Assembly (NCBI GenBank): GCA_017456005.1
Contig: JAFTLJ010000026.1
Location: 1 to 36,745, forward strand
DNA length: 36,745 bases
Source of the DNA: Clostridia bacterium
GTDB taxonomy: Bacteria; Bacillota; Clostridia; Oscillospirales; CAG-272
Direction of reading: 5' to 3'
This document shows positions 2 through 12,440 of this stretch, piece after piece (within the stretch, counting starts at the first letter, position 1; each line of letters starts with the position of its first letter). The translations under genes and the position numbers were made by a program. The notes beneath the pieces are model-generated. The model made no database searches. It was not told where the DNA came from and was given only the letters and a program-made list of their open reading frames with translations.

Positions 2-3000
2 CTTACAGCGGGTAAAAAATGATCCGTATGCGGCGAATTAACGGTAAAACAGGAAGTAATCAAAGCCAAAGGCCACACGGAAGTGGATGTTGCAGGCAAA
101 GATGCGACATGCACGGCAGACGGTCTTACAGCGGGCAAAAAATGCTCCGTATGCGGCGAATTCACGGTAAAACAGGAAGTAATCAAAGCTAAAGGCCACA
201 CAGTAGTATCTCTTCCCGGTATAAAAGAGACATGTACGGAAGATGGTCTTACAGCAGGCGAAAAGTGCTCTGTGTGCGGTGAAATTCTTGTTGCACAGGA
301 AGTGATCAAAGCCGGCCACAAAGAAGCAGACGTTGCAGGCAAAGAAGCAACATGCACGGAAGATGGTCTTACAGCAGGTAAAAAATGTTCCGTATGCGGC
401 GAAGTTCTTGTTGCGCAGGAAGTAATTCCCGCAAAAGGTCATACAGAAGTTGTAGTTGCAGATAAAGAAGCAACATGCACGGAAGATGGTCTTACGGCAG
501 GCAAAAAATGTTCCGTATGCGGCGAAGTTCTTGTTGCACAGGAAGTAATTCCCGCAAAAGGTCACACAGAAGTAGCTGTTCCCGGTAAGGAAGCGACATG
601 TACGGCAGACGGTCTTACAGCAGGTAAAAAATGCTCCGTATGCGGCGAATTCACAGTAAAACAGGAAATTATTCCTGCTACAAACCACAAGGCAACCTCC
701 TCTGTCGTATTCTATACGAAGGGCGAAAACCCCGTTGCTATTGTAATTGCTACAAATAAAAACCTCGGTACACTCGTTGCAGGCGAAGGCATAGAAGCGC
801 TTGTACAGGGTAACTTCTACGTTGTTAACTCTTGCGGATGCACGAATACAGCGGTTGCAGACCTTGGTGCGGCTGTTGCAGATAAACAGGTTACTGCCGG
901 CTGGACGAACGTACTGTCTAACGGCAGAGTACAGAACAGAACGAGCTGGCTGATGAAAACGGTTTCGCTCAAGAACTTTACGCTCAACAGCTATATGGAT
1001 GAAGCGGCACTTAATTCCGCTATGGGCGCATATGCTTCTATGGGTAAATTCGGCACGGTTACGCTCACAAACGTAGACGGCAAGAACGCAGCGCTCGTAT
1101 TTGACGGCACAGGCGAAGCAAAGCTTATAACAGACTATAAATGGAACTTCGTTTATGCAAATTACGATGGTTCCGGCCTCAACGTTGCAACAGGCACAAC
1201 ATGGACACCTCTTGCAATGAACCATATGGAACTTATCAGAACCGCAATAGACTTTGCGCTCAATGAAGAAGCAGGCTACAGCAGAGATATTTGGGTATCT
1301 GCTATGGATACATACGGCGGCCTTCCTTCTATTGTTACGTTGGACGGCAAGTACAACGGAACAACTATCCAGGTGAACAATACAAACGTTTGGAATAATT
1401 CCATTATTCCCGTTAGATACACAGCTGCACTTAAGAACTACGAAGCACTCGAAGACAGCGACGAAGTTATAGCAGAAAAGCTTGCAGCAGCGGAGAAGGC
1501 TCTCAAAGATGCTCAGAAAGCGCTCGACGAAGCTGTAGCTGCAAATGCAAACGTTGCAGCGCTCAAAGCGGCAATGAATAAGGCGGAAAAAGCACTTGAT
1601 GCTGCTAAACAGGCAGAATACGATGCAAAGGTTGCTTACGAAACGGAAAAAGCAAGCAGCGGTATTAACAGCGAAGCAAGCGTAGCTCTCAAGGCTGTAT
1701 ATGACGAAAAAACAGCTAAAAAGAATAGTGCTCAGGCAGAATACGATGCGGCAAAAGCGGCATATGATGAGGCTGTAAATGCAGACGAAGCTCTCAAGGC
1801 TCTTGTAGCGGCTCTCACAGATGCTACAAACGCTCATAAAACAGCAGAAGCTAACCAGAAGAAGGTAGATACGTACAAAGAATACGCTGCCCTCTATGAA
1901 GCGTTCCTCGCTGAATACAGCAAAGCGGCAAACGTAGCACTTTGGGACGTAAACAACATGGAAGAAAGCGCGATAGTAAAAGCTTTTGCAAATGTTCCCG
2001 AAGACCAGCGCGCGCTCCCCACATACACATACTACTATGATGCGGAAACAGATACATATACGGTATTTGTAACATCTGCAACAGACAAAAACACAATCGA
2101 AAAATTCACAGACAATACACCGATCAAACCCTATAACCCCAAAAACATTGATACATCCAACAAAACAACAGTGTTTATCACAATGGGAGAAGAACCCAAA
2201 GCTATCGAGATAGCGACAGGCAAGGTTATTTACGATTTTGCAGTTGCATATTCCGTTGGCGAAGTTAAGGGTGGATATCTCTATCTTATGAAAGCTGTCG
2301 ATGGCAAGAATGTTATTATGACAGAGCTTGGCGCGGCTGTTGCAGATAAACAGGTTACAGGCGGCTGGACGAACGTAAAATCCAACGGCAGAGTACAAAG
2401 CTACAGTACTTATCTTATAAGAATGGTTTCCCTCAAGAACTTTACGCTCAACGGCTATATGGATGAAGCGGCACTTAATTCCGCTATGGGCGCGTATGCT
2501 CCTATCGGCAATTTCGGCACGGTTACGCTCACAAACGTAGACGGCAAGAACGCAGCACTCGTATTTGACGGAACGGGCGAAGCAAAGCTTATAACAGATT
2601 ATAAATGGAACTTCGTTTACGTTAACTATGATGGCTCCGGCCTCAACGTTGCAACAGGCACAACTTGGACACCTCTTGCAATGAACCATATGGAACTTAT
2701 CAGAACCGCAATAGACTTTGCGCTCGGTGAAGAATCAGGCTACAGCAGAGATCTTTGGGTATCTGCTATGGATGCATACGGCGGCCTTCCTTCTATTGTT
2801 ACGTTGGACGGCAAGTACAACGGAACAACTATCCAGGTGAACAATACAAACGTTTGGAATAATTCCATTATTCCCGTTAGATACACAGCTGCGCTTAAGA
2901 ACTACGAAGCACTTGAAGACAGCGACGAAGTTATAGCAGAAAAGCTTGCAGCAGCGGAGAAGGCTCTCAAAGATGCTCAGAAAGCGCTCGACGAAGCTGT

Positions 3001-3613
3001 AGCTGCAAATGCAAATGTTGCAGCACTCAAAGCGGCAATGGATAAGGCGGCTGAAGCACTTGAGGCTGCTAAACAGGCAGAATACGAGGCAAGAGCTGCT
3101 TACGAAACGGAAAAAGCAAGCAGCGGTTCTAAAAGCGAAGCAAGCGTAGCTCTCAAGGCTGTATATGACGAAAAAACAGCTGAAAAGAATAGTGCCCAGT
3201 CTGCATACGATACGGCAAAAGCGGCATACGACGCAGCGGTAGCGGAAGACGAAGCACTTGCATCGCTCAACACAGCTCTCACAGATGCTACAAACGCTCA
3301 TAAAACAGCAGAAGCTAACCAGAAGAAGGTAGATACGTACAAAGAATACGCACCTCTCTACGAAGCGTTCCTTGCTGAATACAGCAAAGCGGCGAACGTA
3401 GCACTTTGGGATGTAAACAACATGGAAGAAAGCGCGATAGTAAAAGCTTTTGCGAATATTCCCGAAAATCAGCGTGCACTTCCCACGTATACATACTACT
3501 ATGATGCAAAAACAGATACATACACGGTATTTGTAACTTCTGCAACAGACAAAAACACAATCGAAAAATTCACAAACAATATAGCTATTAAACCCTACGA
3601 TCCCGAAAACTGA
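2..3613 (+). CDS. Large repetitive surface-type protein, 3' part (5' end outside window)
   Basis: The frame is open from the window edge except for a TGA at 20-22, and ends at 3611-3613. Positions 2-682 encode one partial and five complete units of about 41 residues (starts near 71, 194, 314, 437, 560), each with CTxDGLTAGxKCSVCGE, i.e. one Cys plus a CxxC pair. Such repeats are common in secreted proteins of gut Firmicutes; function unknown. Then follow two modules of 488 residues (about 700-2160 and 2161-3610), each with a globular N-terminal part and an Ala/Lys/Glu-rich region likely to form coiled coil (about 1450-1860 and 2920-3330). The C terminus ends ...KPYDPEN with no LPxTG, membrane anchor or S-layer motif, so attachment is unclear; the signal peptide would lie upstream. 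An internal GTG at 83 has no ribosome site, so I read the gene as continuing from upstream. The real product may be broken by the TGA. Confidence 0.8.
71..682 (+). repeat. Tandem 123-bp coding repeats (41-residue Cys units)
   Basis: Five consecutive units start with GGCCACA/GGTCACA at 71, 194, 314, 437 and 560; spacings are 123, 120, 123 and 123 bp. A sixth partial unit occupies 2-70. The 120-bp unit lacks one Lys codon before the GH. The core ACGGxAGAxGGTCTTACAGC is nearly identical in all copies. Confidence 0.9.
700..3610 (+). repeat. Two direct 1464-bp coding modules
   Basis: Matching points (e.g. GCTGGACGAACGT at 900 and 2364; CGGTATTTGTAAC at 2061 and 3525) are exactly 1464 bp apart, so the copies have no net indel between these points. 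The first 60-70 residues of each module differ strongly, while the rest is almost identical at DNA level, including synonymous positions. Confidence 0.9.
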
Positions 3614-6769: not shown

Positions 6770-6798
6770 ATTATATCACAGAACAGCATTTATGTCAA
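6770..6798 (-). promoter_or_regulatory. Perfect sigma-A promoter for ABC importer operon
   Basis: On the minus strand: TTGACA (6798-6793), 17-bp spacer, TATAAT (6775-6770). Predicted start near 6763, so the transcript runs across the opposing promoter before reaching the binding-protein gene. Confidence 0.8.
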
Positions 6799-6819
6799 TC
6801 AGTGCGGAAAGGAAAAGAA

Positions 6820-7164
6820 ATGCCGAGACCTAAAAAATGCAGAAAAGTATGCTCGATGCCGAGAACGTGTGAGTTTGCGCCCGTCGGAAAGACTTCGGAG
6901 TTTGTTACGCTCACGGTGGACGAGTACGAAACCATTCGTCTTATCGATAAGCAAGGGTTTTCACAAGAGGAATGCGCCGCCTATATGCAGGTGGCAAGGA
7001 CCACGGCACAGCAGATATACAATTCCGCCAAAAACAAGATTGCTACGGCTTTGGTCGATGGCTTCGGTATCCGCATAGAGGGCGGAGATTACCGCCTTTG
7101 CGATGGCAAGGAAGCGCATTGCGGATGCGGCGGATGCCAAAGGCATTGCCAAAATTCATTTTAA
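6820..7164 (+). CDS. DUF134-family helix-turn-helix protein
   Basis: 114 residues from the ATG at 6820, preceded by AAAGGAAAAG; upstream in-frame starts lie inside the promoter spacer/palindrome region. MPRPKKCRKV and the sigma-70 region-4-like helix-turn-helix (about residues 35-75, SQEECAAYMQVARTTAQQIY) are typical of the DUF134 family, a small uncharacterised DNA-binding family of anaerobes and archaea. Several Cys occur: two in the first 20 residues, one in CDGKEAHCGCGGCQRHC and others nearby, suggesting bound metal or Fe-S. First gene of an operon with the siroheme reductase and the NifX-like protein, and likely their regulator (inference). Confidence 0.9.
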   Translation: MPRPKKCRKVCSMPRTCEFAPVGKTSEFVTLTVDEYETIRLIDKQGFSQEECAAYMQVARTTAQQIYNSAKNKIATALVDGFGIRIEGGDYRLCDGKEAHCGCGGCQRHCQNSF

Positions 7165-7185
7165 GAAAAGTAAGGAGAAAATGCT

Positions 7186-8115
7186 ATGAGTATCACAAAA
7201 GAACAGATTACAAGCGTTAAAGGGAGAGGCTTTCTTCTGAACAGAGGCACGGAATGCTTTTCGGGCAGAATCGTAACCGTTGCGGGGCTTTTTACCCCCG
7301 ACGAGCTGCACGCGATCGCAGAGTGCGCAGAGAAGTTTGGCAATGGCAAGGTTATCGTAACCTCCAGACTTGCCGCAGAGATAGTGGGTATACCGTTCGA
7401 TAAGATTCCGGCGGCAGAAGCGTTTATGGCAGAGCGCGGTTTACACTTTGGCGGTACGGGCGCGAAGGTTCGCCCAATAACCGCTTGCAAGGGCACTACA
7501 TGTGTTTACGGCAATATTGATACACAGGCACTTGCAAAGGTCATATACGATAAATTTTATATAGGAATGCGCGATGTAAAGCTGCCGCACAAGTTTAAAA
7601 TAGGTGTAGGCGGATGCCCGAACAGCTGTATGAAGCCGAGCCTTAATGACGTAGGCATAGAAGGCTGCAGGGTATTTTCCTTCGACAGAGAGCTTTGCAG
7701 AGGCTGCAAAAAATGCGCCGTTGCCGCGAACTGCCCTTCCAAAGCCGCAAGCGTTGTTGACGGAAAAGCAATAATTGACGGCAGTAAATGTACAAAATGC
7801 GGTGTTTGCGTCGGCAAATGTCCCTTTGGTGCCGTTCCCAAGGAAGCAGAGTCTGCCTGCCGCATCTTCGTTGGCGGAACTTGGGGGAAAACACAGCGTA
7901 TGGGCACTCGCTTGAATGCGGTTTATTCTGAAGAAGAGGTGCCTGCCGTAATAGAAAAGGTTATGCTTTGGTATAAAGAAAACGGATACGTTAAAGAGCG
8001 CCTTGGTGCGGCGATAGACAGGCTCGGCGCAGATACGCTTGAAGCTGCAATCGCGGGCGACGACCTTATTTTGAGAAAAGAAGAAATTCTTGCAAAGCCT
8101 TTGCTTGAAAGATAA
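7186..8115 (+). CDS. Small siroheme nitrite/sulfite reductase-type protein with two [4Fe-4S] ferredoxin clusters
   Basis: 309 residues; ribosome site AAGGAG and ATG at 7186. Residues 1-70 resemble the nitrite/sulfite reductase ferredoxin-like half domain. The siroheme/[4Fe-4S] ligands are C101-x4-C106 and C144-x3-C148 (GGCPNSC). Two ferredoxin motifs follow: C171, C174, C177, C183 and C202, C205, C208, C212. This order matches the one-domain, ferredoxin-containing reductases (AsrC/DsrAB-like and related small proteins) of anaerobes, which add electrons to sulfite or another oxyanion in the cytoplasm. The first ligand pair is spaced x4 rather than the x5 usual in classical sulfite reductases. 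No asrA/asrB or electron-donor subunit is nearby. The substrate is not known. Confidence 0.85.
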   Translation: MSITKEQITSVKGRGFLLNRGTECFSGRIVTVAGLFTPDELHAIAECAEKFGNGKVIVTSRLAAEIVGIPFDKIPAAEAFMAERGLHFGGTGAKVRPITACKGTTCVYGNIDTQALAKVIYDKFYIGMRDVKLPHKFKIGVGGCPNSCMKPSLNDVGIEGCRVFSFDRELCRGCKKCAVAANCPSKAASVVDGKAIIDGSKCTKCGVCVGKCPFGAVPKEAESACRIFVGGTWGKTQRMGTRLNAVYSEEEVPAVIEKVMLWYKENGYVKERLGAAIDRLGADTLEAAIAGDDLILRKEEILAKPLLER

Positions 8116-8135
8116 ATTTTTTTGAGGTGATTATT

Positions 8136-8552
8136 ATGAAAATTGCAGTAACATACGAAAACGGACAAATATTTCAGCACTTCGGCCATACGGCACAGTT
8201 TAAGCTTTACGAAGTAGAAAACGGTAAGATCGTTTCCTCCGAAGTAATCGACACAAACGGGCAGGGACACGGTGCATTGGCGGGCGTACTTAGCACGGTT
8301 CGCGCTGATATACTTATCTGCGGCGGCATAGGCGGTGGTGCACAGATGGCGCTTGCAGCGGCAGGCATAAAGCTCTTTGGCGGCGTGAGCGGAGATTGCG
8401 ATGCGGCGGTTGAAGCTTTGCTTGCCGGCAACCTCGGCTACGACCCTGATGTAAGATGCAGTCATCACGACCACGAGCACGGTGAGGGCGGACACACCTG
8501 CGGCGACCACGCTTGCGGAAGCCATAAATGCGGCGGCCATAGCTGCCATTGA
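8136..8552 (+). CDS. NifX/NifB-type iron-molybdenum cluster-binding family protein with Cys/His tail
   Basis: 138 residues; ATG at 8136 with TGAGGTG six bases upstream is preferred to the GTG at 8127, which overlaps that site. Residues 1-100 (MKIAVTYENGQIFQHFGHT..., GALAGVLSTV..., ICGGIGGGAQMAL) are the dinitrogenase iron-molybdenum cofactor biosynthesis fold, known in MTH1175-like proteins of non-nitrogen-fixers. The last 30 residues are extremely His/Cys-rich (HHDHEHGEGGHTC, then three Cys-x-x-His-like words), a probable metal-binding tail. Twenty bp after the reductase gene, so co-transcribed; may carry or insert a metal/cluster for it (inference). No nif genes are present. Confidence 0.88.
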   Translation: MKIAVTYENGQIFQHFGHTAQFKLYEVENGKIVSSEVIDTNGQGHGALAGVLSTVRADILICGGIGGGAQMALAAAGIKLFGGVSGDCDAAVEALLAGNLGYDPDVRCSHHDHEHGEGGHTCGDHACGSHKCGGHSCH

Positions 8553-8691: not shown

Positions 8692-8724
8692 CTTCTTCAT
8701 TATTTTTCCTCTTCATTATTTTTC
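8692..8724. repeat. Tandem 16-bp duplication at 3' end of tlpA-like gene
   Basis: CTTCATTATTTTTCC occurs twice in direct succession, at about 8694 and 8710, covering the stop codon of the minus-strand gene. The remainder of 8603-8693 is AT-rich with nothing I can name. Confidence 0.6.
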
Positions 8725-9522
8725 CGTTATCATGCCTATACCTTTTTCGAGCGTTTCGTAATCCAGCATACCCACGCCGCGTGCAATCAAATTGCCTTCT
8801 TTATCGATAAAGTACGTTGTGGGGAAGCCGGTTATACCGTATGTGTTCACGGCATCGCTGTTTACATCGAAGAACACATCGAAATCGTAGCCGTTCTGTT
8901 CAACGTATTTTTTTGCGCTTGCTACGGTTTCTCTTTCGCCGTCTGTGGCGTTTACCATGAGGAATTGAACATTCGGGTAGTTTGCATAGGCCTTATTAAA
9001 ATCTGCCATTTCCGCCTTGCAATAGTAGCACCAGGTAGCCCAGAAATTCAGCACTATCGGCTTGCCGGCGAAATCGGAAAGGTTAACTTCGTTGCCGTTA
9101 TTATCGAGCACAGTGAAATCGGGGGCGTTGAAAGGCTTTGTTTGCGGCTTTGGTGCAGTAGTAGTTGTAGCCGTAGTTGTAGATGTGGTTGCAGTAGTTT
9201 TAACTGTCGTGGCTGTGGTTGTGGCAATTGTATTTGTCGTGCTTGTTGAGGCGGTCGATATGGTTGTTCTATCCGTTACGGAAGTTTTTTGCGCTTCGGT
9301 AGTTGTAAGGGACGTGCTTGCAGAGCTTTCTGCTGTGGCAGAACTGCTTGAAGTAATATGTGCGACCGTCGTAGTTTTTTTACCCAAAGGCTTTACCGTT
9401 ATATTGGTTTCGAGGTTTGGAACAGCATAATCTTTGCTGAGGTTGTTGTAGAGTACAGATGCGCCTGCTATAGTGCCCACGAGCAAAACGGGAATTACGA
9501 GCCATTTTATTATTTTATTCAT
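8716..9522 (-). CDS. Membrane-anchored TlpA/ResA-like thiol-disulfide redoxin with Ser/Thr stalk
   Basis: 268 residues. One N-terminal membrane helix (about 5-25) with no lipobox, then a Ser/Thr/Ala stalk (about 50-125) that is almost pure TTT/STS, then a thioredoxin fold (about 130-268) with active site WATWCYYC (C165, C168) and a cis-Pro loop in GITGFPTTYF. It reduces disulfides outside the membrane and is normally re-reduced by CcdA, which is encoded just upstream (10-bp gap; its AGGAGG overlaps the ccdA stop). The long stalk suggests the domain is held away from the membrane through the wall. No cytochrome c genes are nearby, so the target is unknown. Confidence 0.9.
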   Translation of the reverse strand: MNKIIKWLVIPVLLVGTIAGASVLYNNLSKDYAVPNLETNITVKPLGKKTTTVAHITSSSSATAESSASTSLTTTEAQKTSVTDRTTISTASTSTTNTIATTTATTVKTTATTSTTTATTTTAPKPQTKPFNAPDFTVLDNNGNEVNLSDFAGKPIVLNFWATWCYYCKAEMADFNKAYANYPNVQFLMVNATDGERETVASAKKYVEQNGYDFDVFFDVNSDAVNTYGITGFPTTYFIDKEGNLIARGVGMLDYETLEKGIGMITEK

Positions 9523-9532
9523 AAATTTCCTC

Positions 9533-10198
9533 CTAAGACATCATTGCCAGAAATTTTCCGAAAAGACCTGTTGCCATAAGAACACCTATGAGAACAAGGA
9601 ATATTCCGCTTATGATATTTATAACGTTGTAATGTTTTTTTATAAAATTGAATGTGTTTTTGAATTTATCTATCAAAATTGCGCTTATAAAAAACGGGAT
9701 CCCAAGCCCTGCGGAGTAGGAGAGAAGCATAAGAACGCCCTCCAGCGTGTTGCCTCCGCTTGCCGCCATCATAAGTGCGGAACCGAGGAATGCGCCCACA
9801 CATGGTGTCCAACCTATAGAGAATATCACGCCGAACAAAAGGGAAGAGAAGAAGCCGAGCGATTGCTTTCTTGCCATGCGGCTGCCCTTGAAAATATTTA
9901 ATTTGAATATTCCGAGGAAGTTGAGCCCGAAGAATATAACTATAGCGCCTGTTACTATGTTGACGATCGTTCCGTATTTGCCAAGCAATTCTCCGAAAAA
10001 GCCTGCCAGCGCACCGAGCAAAACGAAAACTGTTGTGAACCCGAGAATGAACCCGAGAACGTTTTTTATAACCTTTTTGCTGTCTTTTTCTTCTGCAGAG
10101 CCGCCTGCAAAATAGGAAACGTAGATTGGCAGCATCGGTAAAAGACAAGGGGAAATGAAAGTTATTATACCTTCAAGAAAAGAAATTAAATATTGCAT
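9533..10198 (-). CDS. ccdA: CcdA-family transmembrane thiol-electron carrier
   Basis: 221 residues from the ATG at 10198, preceded by GGCAGGAGG; the longer frame to 10294 would start upstream of the promoter. Six hydrophobic helices are visible. The two membrane cysteines lie in ISPCLLPMLPIYVSYF (C18) and GWTPCVGAF (C133), as in CcdA, which passes electrons from cytoplasmic thioredoxin to extracytoplasmic redoxins. It forms an operon with the TlpA-like gene downstream. The upstream region carries a CRP-like box at 10269-10283. Confidence 0.93.
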   Translation of the reverse strand: MQYLISFLEGIITFISPCLLPMLPIYVSYFAGGSAEEKDSKKVIKNVLGFILGFTTVFVLLGALAGFFGELLGKYGTIVNIVTGAIVIFFGLNFLGIFKLNIFKGSRMARKQSLGFFSSLLFGVIFSIGWTPCVGAFLGSALMMAASGGNTLEGVLMLLSYSAGLGIPFFISAILIDKFKNTFNFIKKHYNVINIISGIFLVLIGVLMATGLFGKFLAMMS

Positions 10199-10241: not shown

Positions 10242-10283
10242 ATTATAATATAAAACCCATAGGTTTTCTGTGATTTGGTCACA
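10242..10283 (-). promoter_or_regulatory. ccdA promoter with Crp/Fnr-type box
   Basis: Minus-strand TATAAT at 10247-10242; a TGTGA-N5-TCACA dyad at 10269-10283 replaces a recognisable -35. Twenty-one bp separate box and -10, placing the box centre near -40, the usual site for class II activation by Crp/Fnr proteins. The same geometry occurs upstream of trxA. Confidence 0.75.
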
Positions 10284-10318
10284 AAAAAATCCACGATTTT
10301 TTAATCGTGGATTTTCAG
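10283..10318 (-). terminator. Terminator of trxB
   Basis: 13-bp arms 10286-10298 and 10303-10315 with a 4-nt loop; the minus strand then reads a run of T. It abuts the Crp-type box of ccdA, leaving no spare sequence between the two units. Confidence 0.85.
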
Positions 10319-10325
10319 ACATGAA

Positions 10326-11243
10326 TTATATGTTCAGGAATTCTTCCGCGTAGTGAACGGCTACTGCGCCGTCTGCCACGGCGGTTACTATCTGGCGGAG
10401 CGCCTTTGTGCGAACGTCGCCTACGGCATATACGCCCTCTGCGCTTGTTTTTGTGCTTTCGTCGGCTATTATATAGCCGTTTTCATCGAGCTCAATTGCG
10501 CCTTTCAAGAAGTCTGTGGCGGGTTTTCTACCTATGCTTACAAACACGCCGTCGCAGGAAAGCTCGCTTATTTCGCCTGTTACTTTGTTCTTTATTTTTA
10601 CGCCCGTGACTCTTTTATCTGCCACAAATTCTTCTATGGAGCTGTTCCAAAGAAATTCCACGTTTTCTGCTTTCATAAGCGGTTCGTGATATATTTTTGT
10701 TGCACGAAGTGTGTCCCTGCGGTGTACGAGATATACTTTTTTTGCAAGGCGGGAAAGGTACAGCGCGTCTGCCGCAGCAGAGTTTCCGCCGCCTACGACA
10801 ACAACAGTTTTGTCTTTATAAAATCTGCCGTCGCAGTGCGCGCAGTAGTGTACGCCCCTGCCGATCAGCGCCTGCTCGTTTGCAACGCCGAGCTCGCGTG
10901 GGTTTGCGCCCGTTGCTATAACCACGGTTTTTGCCTCGAAAACCTTGGAATATGTGTGAACTTTTTTCGTTTTTTCGGAAAGATCTACGTGAGTAACGTC
11001 TTCGTATTCTGTTTTGGCGCCAAAGCGCTCTGCGCCCTGCTGCATCTTCATGCCGAGAGTAAAGCCGTCTACGCCTTCTTCAAATCCGGGGTAATTATCT
11101 ATATCCCCCGTGAGCGCCATTTGGCCGCCCGCCGACATTCGCTCCAGCACAACTGTGTCGAGCCCTGCACGCGCCGCGTACAATGCGGCTGTATACCCCG
11201 CGGGGCCGCCGCCTATTATTATCATATCGTATATATGTTCCAT
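10326..11243 (-). CDS. trxB: NADPH-thioredoxin reductase
   Basis: 305 residues, standard for low-molecular-weight TrxB. FAD-binding GGGPAG (11-16), redox-active CAHCDG (C134, C137), NADPH-binding GGGNSAAADA (151-160) and HRRDTLRAT, then the C-terminal FAD motif VYAVGDVRT. The retained HRRxxxR argues for NADPH rather than a ferredoxin-linked FFTR type. The CAHC centre differs from the CATC of E. coli. It supplies reduced thioredoxin for trxA and, through CcdA, for the extracytoplasmic redoxin. Transcribed divergently from the Crp/Fnr gene. Confidence 0.95.
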   Translation of the reverse strand: MEHIYDMIIIGGGPAGYTAALYAARAGLDTVVLERMSAGGQMALTGDIDNYPGFEEGVDGFTLGMKMQQGAERFGAKTEYEDVTHVDLSEKTKKVHTYSKVFEAKTVVIATGANPRELGVANEQALIGRGVHYCAHCDGRFYKDKTVVVVGGGNSAAADALYLSRLAKKVYLVHRRDTLRATKIYHEPLMKAENVEFLWNSSIEEFVADKRVTGVKIKNKVTGEISELSCDGVFVSIGRKPATDFLKGAIELDENGYIIADESTKTSAEGVYAVGDVRTKALRQIVTAVADGAVAVHYAEEFLNI

Positions 11244-11263
11244 GCTTGACCTCCTTTTTTTCT

Positions 11264-11292
11264 ATTATAACCCCCAATCACAGGTTTGTCAA
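11264..11292 (-). promoter_or_regulatory. Perfect promoter of trxB
   Basis: Minus-strand TTGACA (11292-11287), 17-bp spacer, TATAAT (11269-11264). The spacer contains a lone TGTGATT half-site on the same strand. Confidence 0.85.
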
Positions 11293-11305
11293 TTCGATAT
11301 TTTTC

Positions 11306-11322
11306 AACGCAAAATATGCGTT
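11306..11322. promoter_or_regulatory. 17-bp palindrome between trxB and the Crp/Fnr gene
   Basis: AACGCA-N5-TGCGTT, perfect 6-bp arms, next to the -35 of the regulator gene and upstream of the trxB promoter. The N5 spacing equals that of the TGTGA-N5-TCACA boxes but the arms differ. Candidate operator; binding protein unknown. Confidence 0.4.
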
Positions 11323-11323
11323 A

Positions 11324-11352
11324 TTGACATACTTTCGGGGGTGTGCTATAAT
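11324..11352 (+). promoter_or_regulatory. Perfect promoter of the Crp/Fnr regulator gene
   Basis: TTGACA at 11324-11329, 17-bp spacer, TATAAT at 11347-11352. Confidence 0.85.
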
Positions 11353-11396
11353 TTTTATATACAAATGCCACATCATATTTGAAAGGAGAGCTTCAA

Positions 11397-12062
11397 ATGT
11401 TTGAAGATGTATATAAAGAAATGCTTCCTTTTTGGAATGAAATAACCGAAAAGGAAAGGAATTTTATTTGCGAGCATTCGCTGGCGACTACTTACCTGAA
11501 GGGGACTACCGTCCACGACAGCACAGAGTGCTCGGGAGTTTTTTTCGTTCGTTCCGGTTGCTTGCGCGTTTATATTATGTCCGAGGACGGCAAGGAAATA
11601 ACACTTTATCGCTTGCATAAGGGCGGTATGTGCATGCTTTCCGCCTCCTGCGTTTTGCAGGCCATAACCTTCGACGTTTTTGTGGATGCAGAGGAAAACA
11701 GCGAATGCTATATTATAAGCGGACCAGCGTTTGCGACTGTTTCGGAAAATAACCCAAACGTTAAAATATTTGCACTGGAAACCGCCGTAAGCCGCTTTTC
11801 CGACGTTATGTGGGTAATGCAACAGATATTGTTTATGGGCATGGACAGGCGCCTTGCGATTTTTCTGCTTGACGAAGCTTCCAAAACAGGTACGGACACA
11901 ATAAAATTAACTCACGAGCAGATAGCCAAATATATGGGTTCTGCCCGTGAGGTGGTTACGCGAATGCTGAAATATTTTGCCGGGGAGGGGATGATATCAG
12001 CCTCCCGTACAGAGGGAATAAGGTTGCTCGATAAAAAGCGTCTACGCACCTTAGCCTTCTAA
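11397..12062 (+). CDS. Crp/Fnr-family transcription regulator
   Basis: 221 residues from the ATG at 11397 with GAAAGGAG upstream. A cyclic-nucleotide-binding-type beta barrel (about 15-115) is followed by a dimer helix and a winged helix (about 150-221). The recognition helix has SAREVVTRM (182-190): R184, E185 and R189 line up with the R-E-x3-R triad by which E. coli CRP reads TGTGA. Six Cys lie at 25, 45, 55, 79, 85 and 104, with the pair in CMLSASC (79, 85) most suggestive of redox or Fe-S sensing; no FNR-like N-terminal Cys cluster is present. Lies between trxB and trxA, so control of the thiol system is likely. The last 12 bp overlap the end of the convergent trxA. Confidence 0.92.
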   Translation: MFEDVYKEMLPFWNEITEKERNFICEHSLATTYLKGTTVHDSTECSGVFFVRSGCLRVYIMSEDGKEITLYRLHKGGMCMLSASCVLQAITFDVFVDAEENSECYIISGPAFATVSENNPNVKIFALETAVSRFSDVMWVMQQILFMGMDRRLAIFLLDEASKTGTDTIKLTHEQIAKYMGSAREVVTRMLKYFAGEGMISASRTEGIRLLDKKRLRTLAF

Positions 12063-12359
12063 CATAGCGAGTATTTGCGCCTTGGGGCGTGCACCCGTTG
12101 CCTGGTTTACTATTTCGCCGTTTTTCATAACCACGAGCGTGGGAATGCTGAATACGCCGAATTCGCCTGCGAGGTCGGGCTCTTCGTCAACGTTGATCTT
12201 TCCTACGATGATGTCTCTGCGTTCCTCTGCTATTTCGTCTACAATGGGGGAAACCATACGGCAGGGGCCGCACCAATCTGCGTAAAAATCTAAAAGTACG
12301 GGTTTATCGCTGTTTTTTATTTCTTCAAAATTTGCATAATTTATTTTCTTTACTGACAT
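12051..12359 (-). CDS. trxA: Thioredoxin
   Basis: 102 residues with DFYADWCGPC (C30, C33) and cis-Pro73 in SIPTLVV: a complete cytoplasmic thioredoxin. It is reduced by TrxB and gives electrons to reductases, peroxiredoxins and CcdA. AAAGGAG lies 8 bp upstream of the ATG. Its 3' end overlaps the convergent Crp/Fnr gene. The upstream region carries the second Crp-type box. Confidence 0.96.
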   Translation of the reverse strand: MSVKKINYANFEEIKNSDKPVLLDFYADWCGPCRMVSPIVDEIAEERRDIIVGKINVDEEPDLAGEFGVFSIPTLVVMKNGEIVNQATGARPKAQILAMLEG

Positions 12360-12398
12360 ATTATTATTCTCCTTTGTTTTGTTTTGTTTTGTGTCTTT

Positions 12399-12440
12399 AT
12401 TCTAACATATTTTATATCGTTTTACTGTGATTTAGTCACA
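12399..12440 (-). promoter_or_regulatory. trxA promoter with Crp/Fnr-type box
   Basis: Minus-strand -10 TAGAAT at 12404-12399; TGTGA-N5-TCACA at 12426-12440 with 21 bp between, exactly as at ccdA. The two 15-bp boxes differ at one base only (TTTGG against TTTAG). Confidence 0.75.

Follow-up and report, generated by a model that had tools for sequence, protein, structure and literature searches.

A predicted Crp/Fnr regulon of redox-repair genes in Clostridia, with a distinctive 15-bp operator and a cysteine-rich regulator

The regulator and its described relatives

In class II activation, as carried out by CRP, the operator is centred near -41. Escherichia coli CRP and its homologue Vfr read the half-site TGTGA with an R-E-x3-R motif at a site near -41, on a 16-bp operator with a 6-bp (N6) spacer. 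Here we describe a 36,745-nt stretch of DNA from a Clostridia bacterium (contig JAFTLJ010000026.1 of assembly GCA_017456005.1; 'the window' below), in which a Crp/Fnr-family regulator gene lies beside genes for thioredoxin (trxA), thioredoxin reductase (trxB), the transmembrane thiol transporter CcdA (ccdA) and a TlpA-like redoxin (tlpA). Boxes of the form TGTGA-N5-TCACA precede trxA and the ccdA-tlpA pair. The regulator resembles CRP and Vfr in its R184-E185-x3-R189, which aligns with the RE-x3-R of Vfr, and in having its site near -41, but differs in its 15-bp operator with a 5-bp (N5) spacer and in carrying CMLSASC at the position of the cAMP phosphate-binding cassette. It is very probably an activator from an uncharacterised Crp/Fnr subfamily, which would act in the class II manner through the N5 box, drive trxA and ccdA-tlpA, and take its signal through cysteines.

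Membership of the Crp/Fnr superfamily is indicated by a sensor domain of the cNMP_binding type and a winged helix of the Crp type, with three Pfam matches above cut-off (PF00027, 34.4 bits; PF13545, 57.6; PF00325, 37.7). No NCBIfam model scores the regulator above its cut-off: the cAMP-CRP model NF008732 reaches 49.4 bits against 266, and the FNR model NF008365 23.1 bits against 228. FNR has an N-terminal cysteine cluster for [4Fe-4S]; the near-invariant cysteines here are residues 45, 79 and 85. By profile the regulator falls in the family of the structure PDB 3DV8 (E 6e-98, against 3.5e-20 for the next match, CooA). This structure has equivalents of Cys45, Cys79, Cys85 and RE-x3-R, and we found no published function, operator or regulon for it in open-licence PubMed Central (PMC) papers. 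PgRsp of Porphyromonas gingivalis comes from another phylum. In print, 3DV8, whose source organism is Eubacterium rectale, has served as the modelling template for PgRsp, a Crp/Fnr protein which is tied to oxidative stress and has Cys76, and which differs from the regulator in being a heme binder (PMC6955866; this and the other papers given by PMC number are cited from excerpts of their text). PgRsp is likened to the regulator by description only; the terms 'consensus' and 'binding site' do not occur in the text of that source as excerpted.

HcpR and HcpR2 are likewise Crp/Fnr proteins of anaerobes with redox regulons, but they have even spacers (N6, or GTAACnnnnGTTAC for HcpR2) and are linked to nitrosative stress (PMC545781, PMC1274295, PMC12915319). 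Their operators are CRP-like with N6, TTGAC-N4-GTCAA or GTAAC-N4-GTTAC (PMC545781, PMC1274295, PMC12915319), and Desulfovibrio HcpR reads wTGTGAnnnnnnTCACAw with R180/E181 (PMC545781, PMC1274295). HcpR, CooA and FNR-like motifs are even dyads, and R180/E181 pairs there with G3/A6 (PMC545781, PMC1274295), a pairing also seen here; by the rule given in PMC1274295 the residues R184/E185 predict TGTGA. The operator described here reads TGTGAY-N3-RTCACA, outside the HcpR types, and its N5 spacer sets it apart from published sites of CRP, CooA and HcpR, which raises the question of how a Crp/Fnr dimer fits on a site 1 bp shorter than that of CRP. Our search of open-licence PMC papers found no characterised Crp/Fnr protein that uses an odd-dyad 15-bp operator, and no description of the N5 motif or of this regulon; one listing match has other spacing. 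Judged from the sequences compared here, we regard the predicted regulon, with its distinctive operator and cysteine-rich sensor, as real and conserved, and it is undescribed in those papers.

The boxed promoter and its conservation

The initial annotation of the window had proposed two boxes, each 21 bp from a -10 hexamer in a class II position. Both boxes are exact (TGTGATTTGGTCACA before ccdA-tlpA and TGTGATTTAGTCACA before trxA; Table 1), against 0.02 expected from 100 dinucleotide shuffles, none of which reached two, and the composite of box, 21 bp and -10 hexamer occurs twice in the window and in no shuffle. With up to two mismatches allowed there are 9 box matches against 9.33 expected, so only the exact class is informative, and this tolerant search was replaced by exact and composite patterns. 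The 2.12-Mb genome as a whole holds four exact boxes, two of them those of the window; the others (on contigs C88 and C89) have matrix scores of 7.4 and 6.0 and were rejected as targets. A composite pattern with an open second flank base has two perfect matches in this genome, at ccdA-tlpA and trxA. Only perfect matches were counted, because two mismatches give 16 matches compared with 19 for a backward control. That the boxes are palindromes arisen by chance, or RNA hairpins, is hardly credible, although TGTGACTTCGTCACA repeats, present in several copies in two relatives (G057 and G015), look like TTCG-loop hairpins that mimic the box, and a one-mismatch composite site on contig C46 of the window's own genome, rejected as a target, lies in an inverted repeat that resembles a hairpin and lacks a convincing gene. 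Against this stand the count of two exact boxes against 0.02 and the conserved position of the box upstream of the -10, which places it outside the transcript.

Relatives were compared in two sets of regulator loci. The G-set comprises the window and 40 neighbourhoods (L035-L074), i.e. 41 loci in 502 kb; the N-set comprises the best 80 of at least 576 confirmed relatives from named genomes, or 75 after removal of five duplicates, in records named Oscillospiraceae, Lachnospiraceae, Ruminococcus, Clostridia and similar. Box matrices were cross-trained, the matrix of one set being scored on the other, with a score of at least 14 counted as a box, and a -10 hexamer needed at least four of six matches, including A2 and T6. 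The -10 lies exactly 21 bp after the box in 69/74 boxed upstream regions of trxA, 7/8 of ccdA and 7/8 of trxB. Over 152 boxes (304 orientations, 136 loci), 130 hexamers were found at a spacer of 21, compared with 6-34 at each of the other spacers between 10 and 34. If the -10 is taken to occupy -12 to -7, the centre of the operator falls at about -41, and the proposed class II position is borne out as a fixed geometry in the relatives. In the 130 promoters so oriented, the flank on the promoter side of the box is conserved (G 97%, A 92%, A 85%), while on the far side no base exceeds 47%; conservation on one side only points to contact at the -35 and not to a longer palindrome. The last bases of the palindrome are CA, and the side facing RNA polymerase reads CAGAAA-17-TATAAT. 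The predicted promoter, GTGAY-N3-RTCAC-N-GA-N19-TAnnnT, joins a class II site to a degenerate -35 and has the features of class II promoters: an operator near -41, a weak -35 that it overlaps and a good -10.

The overlap of box and -35 region by 2 bp would also suit a repression operator, from which the regulator blocks sigma at the -35 until it leaves on oxidation, and Crp/Fnr proteins can repress. We consider this improbable, as the boxed promoters have CAGAAA-like -35 elements whereas the unboxed promoters of trxB and the regulator gene have perfect TTGACA, and as a 21-bp spacer with the centre at about -41 is the position of class II activation. Neither trxB nor the regulator gene has a box upstream in the window's own genome; both have perfect TTGACA-17-TATAAT promoters and are therefore probably independent of the activator, on which trxA and ccdA-tlpA would depend. 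For the same reason, co-regulation of the whole NADPH-TrxB-TrxA-CcdA-TlpA chain, as first proposed, is unsupported here, whereas activation of trxA and ccdA-tlpA is supported by conservation at trxA, co-occurrence and class II geometry. Sixteen regulator upstream regions have a box, with a regulator-side -10 at 21 bp in one; the box seems to serve the divergent gene, and autoregulation is not claimed.

The N5 spacer predominates: exact TGTGA/TCACA sites in the 502 kb of the G-set number 14 with N5, two with N4 and one with N6, and none with N3, N7 or N8, unlike the 16-bp N6 operator of cAMP-CRP. The regulator gene is convergent with a trxA within 500 bp in 83/116 loci. A trxA is in view in 29/41 G-set and 59/75 N-set loci; in 24 and 59 of these it converges on the regulator gene from no more than 500 bp away. 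Loci with trxB (at least 200 bits) in view number 6 and 16, and those with ccdA 4 and 2. A box lies upstream of the regulator-locus trxA in 21/29 cases in the G-set (12/41 loci had no trxA in view) and in 54/58 in the N-set (16/75 had none and one region was too short), compared with 2/40 in genomes lacking the regulator (40 of 57 regulator-negative genomes with a trxA match). The Fisher values against this last set are 2.8e-9 and 3.5e-20, but the regulator and promoter share phylogeny, so that these and the p-values below overstate independence and are not literal. Scores at trxA form two groups with few intermediate. Additional trxA copies in regulator-positive genomes have a box in 4/20 (not box-selected) or 3/5 (box-selected) cases, and trxB is boxed in eight relatives' loci. 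In one G-set locus (L045, genome G052) an in-frame TAG interrupts the regulator orthologue, and trxA has no box; this regulator is possibly a decaying copy.

Regulator and promoter also occur together across genomes. The regulator was called at E<=1e-10 in 38 of 117 relatives' genomes, the window's own included, and the composite GTGAYNNNRTCACNGA-N19-TANNNT, searched in plain DNA, was found in 31/117: in 28/38 regulator-positive but only 3/79 regulator-negative genomes (p about 2e-15). The strict box alone separates them less well (24/38 against 13/79). In a class-wide sample of 391 genomes, with the regulator called at E<=1e-25, the composite was found in 54, made up of 40/82 regulator-positive and 14/309 negative genomes (p about 3e-20), or 36/78 and 14/305 without the eight genomes shared with the first sample. 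A backward control pattern matched 1/117 and 2/391 genomes. The 14 class-wide exceptions were searched with the family profile, and 10 have some match at E<=0.001. Seven of the 14 have a regulator 22-27% identical to that of the window, with Cys45 and Cys79 in 7/7, Cys85 in 6/7 and RE-xx-SR in 7/7. The promoter starts no more than 10 bp from the matched end of the regulator in G209 and G233, and within 3 kb in G267, G359 and G183, but not in G127 or G279. Five other Crp/Fnr proteins from the same profile search lack the cysteines. Thus cysteines and operator tend to travel together even where sequence similarity is low. Among the regulator-negative relatives with a composite, the matches in G029 and G069 have no gene after them and look like chance; that in G066 does not.

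Besides the shared phylogeny, several observations weigh against this reading. The strict composite finds only ccdA in the window's own genome and misses trxA, which has a GT flank. trxA lacks a scoring box in 8/29 G-set and 4/58 N-set cases, one of which (L055) is a clear N6 version (TGTGACAAAAGTCACA) with the -10 distance still 21 bp. At ccdA the box (score at least 14) is found in 6/16 regulator-positive and 1/12 negative genomes, the same direction but not significant (p=0.18), although at a score of at least 12 it is found in 8/16 regulator-positive genomes; conservation in relatives, which the annotation had proposed to look for, is thus clear at trxA and seen at eight trxB loci, but not significant for ccdA alone. 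The strict promoter is present in only 40/82 regulator-positive genomes of the class sample, 7/14 exceptions have no detected cysteine-bearing relative (two weak loci being unread), and G066, which is 85% complete, has three good promoters and no regulator found.

These gaps could mean that the boxes belong to another DNA-binding protein, e.g. a Crp/Fnr paralogue, with the neighbouring regulator a bystander. Boxes without a detected regulator occur in G066, G228, G273, G355 and G472 (in the last four the profile search at E<=0.001 found no relative), and some regulator-positive genomes have no strict promoters. We give this reading little weight in view of the strong co-occurrence, the linkage beside boxed trxA, the invariant R184/E185/R189 that predict TGTGA, and the fact that in 5/7 genomes a divergent regulator carrying these cysteines lies within 3 kb of such a promoter; several of the exceptional matches also have poor -10s (TATCTT, TACCTT, TACATT) and may be chance.

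Regulon content and the predicted signal

The 110 distinct composite promoters, pooled from regulator-positive and regulator-negative genomes, have 105 first genes, five having no gene within 300 bp. Pfam domains found in these genes are, among others, thioredoxin (38), pyridine nucleotide-disulfide oxidoreductase (18, with its dimerisation domain in 11), 4Fe-4S (12), rhodanese (11) and CcdA/DsbD (6). By eye we also recognised desulfoferrodoxin, rubredoxin, ferredoxin-thioredoxin-reductase-like, glutaredoxin-like, ferritin, OsmC-like and DsrE-like genes, and CoA-disulfide reductases seem to account for many of the pyridine nucleotide enzymes; no hcp, which with frdX is a target of HcpR, was recognised by eye among these first genes, which are first genes of promoters only. 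The 129 first genes of the 130 oriented promoters, clustered by eye, are thioredoxin-like (72), ferredoxin (22), desulfoferrodoxin (8), TrxB (7), ferritin (6), CcdA (4), rubredoxin (3), membrane protein (2) and singletons (5). A minority of the 105 does not look redox-related by eye: a short-chain dehydrogenase (L346), a 2-hydroxyacid-dehydrogenase-like protein (L397), a 122-aa pair (L416/L418), a 202-aa membrane protein (L045), a ribosome-factor-like fragment (L390) and two probable false open reading frames (L061, L369).

By gene content, the regulon is predicted to serve redox repair in anaerobes and is wider than thiols. The idea of a self-contained thiol regulon fits the window's own genome, with its two perfect composites, but relatives add ferredoxins, superoxide reductase, rubredoxin, ferritin, rhodaneses and CoA-disulfide-reductase-like genes, several of them named by eye. 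To our knowledge, how obligate gut anaerobes (Oscillospiraceae, Lachnospiraceae, Ruminococcus) sense oxygen or sulfur stress and turn on thiol repair is poorly understood. A study of Clostridioides difficile thioredoxins ties part of the trx genes to sigma-B, and no Crp- or Fnr- word occurs in its excerpted text (PMC10880999). With one regulator, and a promoter signature that is rigid and can be searched for, the regulon would become predictable in many uncultured genomes.

Some boxed operons were seen in passing. Near trxA in L037 (position 7846), L149 (4060), L176 (5850) and similar loci there is a second boxed operon with a ~65-aa two-cluster ferredoxin, followed in L037 by a membrane protein of ~200 aa that carries a CNRYC motif. 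In G066 (C2, 26858-29953) composite promoters stand before a rhodanese-like lipoprotein, a thioredoxin and a ferredoxin.

In the mechanism we propose, the regulator dimer would read TGTGAY through R184/E185/R189 on each half of the 15-bp palindrome. Bound at about -41, it would abut the degenerate -35 (CAGAAA), 17 bp from a good -10, and RNA polymerase would fire well at boxed promoters only with its help. In the window's own genome it would thereby drive trxA, for the cytoplasmic thioredoxin, and ccdA-tlpA, for a membrane relay exporting reducing power, while trxB and the regulator gene would use their own strong promoters. The signal may be disulfide or persulfide formation at Cys45, Cys79 and Cys85 of the sensor domain, such that oxidants or reactive sulfur change the cysteines and the repair genes are turned on when thiols are oxidised.

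Cys79 and Cys85, within CMLSASC, had been suggested as a thiol sensor. Both are present as described, and their conservation strongly supports such a role, although the third cysteine, Cys45, is equally conserved (Table 1). All three occur together in 114/116 regulators; Cys104 is found in 83% and Cys25 in 72%. Within this model, the signal we prefer, and a reasonably probable one, is a thiol or persulfide reaction of the three cysteines. Targets of the rhodanese and CoA-disulfide-reductase-like kinds point to reactive sulfur as one specific possibility. The promoters precede genes for rhodaneses, CoA-disulfide/persulfide-reductase-like, glutaredoxin-like, OsmC-like and DsrE-like proteins, thioredoxin and superoxide reductase. 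More tentatively, the regulator could represent a class-wide, Crp/Fnr-fold, multi-cysteine activator of strict anaerobes, which senses reactive sulfur (persulfide) and disulfide and acts on a 15-bp odd-dyad operator. If so, Cys45, Cys79 and Cys85 would do the job done elsewhere by OxyR, Spx, CstR or PerR. The persulfide sensors CstR and SqrR resemble the regulator in having several cysteines and in their persulfide/sulfide-handling genes, but have CsoR-like and other folds, none of them Crp/Fnr in the excerpted text, and CstR is a repressor (PMC9774590).

In the main rival reading, the same regulator, box and class II promoters would instead serve a sensor with heme or another metal cofactor (such as Fe-S) on the cysteines, which would respond, as CooA does, to O2, NO, CO or the redox state of heme. 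Outside the family, CooA (1ft9) is the closest relative with a solved structure; in the profile alignment Cys85 matches the second cysteine of the CooA motif FCMHSGC, and Cys79 falls one residue before the first, which is the heme ligand Cys75, the others being His77 and Pro2 (PMC6955866). PgRsp, modelled on 3DV8, binds heme and affects oxidative-stress genes (PMC6955866), and the frequent Cys104 and Cys25 make a metal site conceivable. We nevertheless think a heme or metal sensor unlikely. No His corresponding to CooA His77 occurs at residues 80-83 in 116 regulators, Pro is at residue 2 in 1/41 (computed starts), PgRsp keeps its heme spectra on substitution of Cys76, Met78 or His85 (data not shown there; PMC6955866), and the gene content is that of thiol and sulfur repair. 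The regulator family would give a function to the orphan structure 3DV8, and its sensor chemistry is testable.

Layout of the window and minor observations

On the minus strand, the window carries ccdA-tlpA, then trxB and trxA, with the regulator gene on the plus strand (Table 1). trxA is convergent with the regulator gene, and their 3' ends overlap by 12 bp. The identities first given to the four redox proteins hold by Pfam and NCBIfam: TrxA and TrxB score above curated cut-offs, and CcdA and the TlpA-like redoxin are Pfam assignments. ccdA and tlpA probably form a single operon. A longer ccdA reading frame is possible from a GTG at 10294, which would put the box within the gene; the ATG at 10198 was preferred, since a ribosome-binding site serves it and, in most relatives, the CcdA alignment begins with the residue it encodes.

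Table 1. Genes, promoter elements and regulator residues of the window
Feature	Position	Strand	Basis or remark
tlpA/resA-like membrane-anchored redoxin (268 aa)	8716..9522	-	PF00578/PF08534; 10 bp after ccdA
ccdA, DsbD/CcdA transmembrane thiol transporter (221 aa)	9533..10198	-	PF02683
-10 hexamer TATAAT of ccdA-tlpA, 21 bp from operator	10242..10247	-	sequence, composite search
Degenerate -35 CAGAAA, 2-bp overlap with operator, 17 bp from -10	10265..10270	-	sequence; conserved promoter-side GAA
15-bp operator TGTGACCAAATCACA upstream of ccdA-tlpA, centre about -41	10269..10283	-	exact box and spacing searches
trxB, thioredoxin reductase	10326..11243	-	TIGR01292 above cut-off; without box here
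Sigma-70 promoter of trxB, perfect (TTGACA-17-TATAAT), lacking an operator	11264..11292	-	
Sigma-70 promoter of regulator gene, perfect (TTGACA-17-TATAAT), lacking an operator	11324..11352	+	
Crp/Fnr-family regulator (221 aa), predicted activator at both boxes	11397..12062	+	PF00027, PF13545, PF00325
Cys45 codon	11529..11531	+	conserved in 115/116 regulators
Cys79 codon	11631..11633	+	conserved in 115/116 regulators
Cys85 codon	11649..11651	+	conserved in 115/116 regulators
R184-E185-x3-R189, DNA-reading helix	11946..11963	+	all three residues in 116/116; aligned with Vfr
trxA, thioredoxin (102 aa)	12051..12359	-	TIGR01068 above cut-off; PF00085
-10 hexamer TAGAAT of trxA, TGt before, 21 bp from operator	12399..12404	-	sequence, composite search
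Degenerate -35 CAGTAA, 2-bp overlap with trxA operator	12422..12427	-	sequence
15-bp operator TGTGACTAAATCACA upstream of trxA	12426..12440	-	exact box and spacing searches

Elsewhere in the window, on the plus strand, genes for a DUF134 protein, a siroheme sulfite/nitrite-reductase-like protein and a NifX-like protein lie side by side at 6778-8552. NifX-like genes are in view in 5/41 G-set and 7/75 N-set regulator loci, and five start less than 260 bp from a box. At 83-3613, also on the plus strand, is a gene for a repeat protein of 1176 aa, with units GH..V..GKEATCT.DGLTAGKKCSVC.

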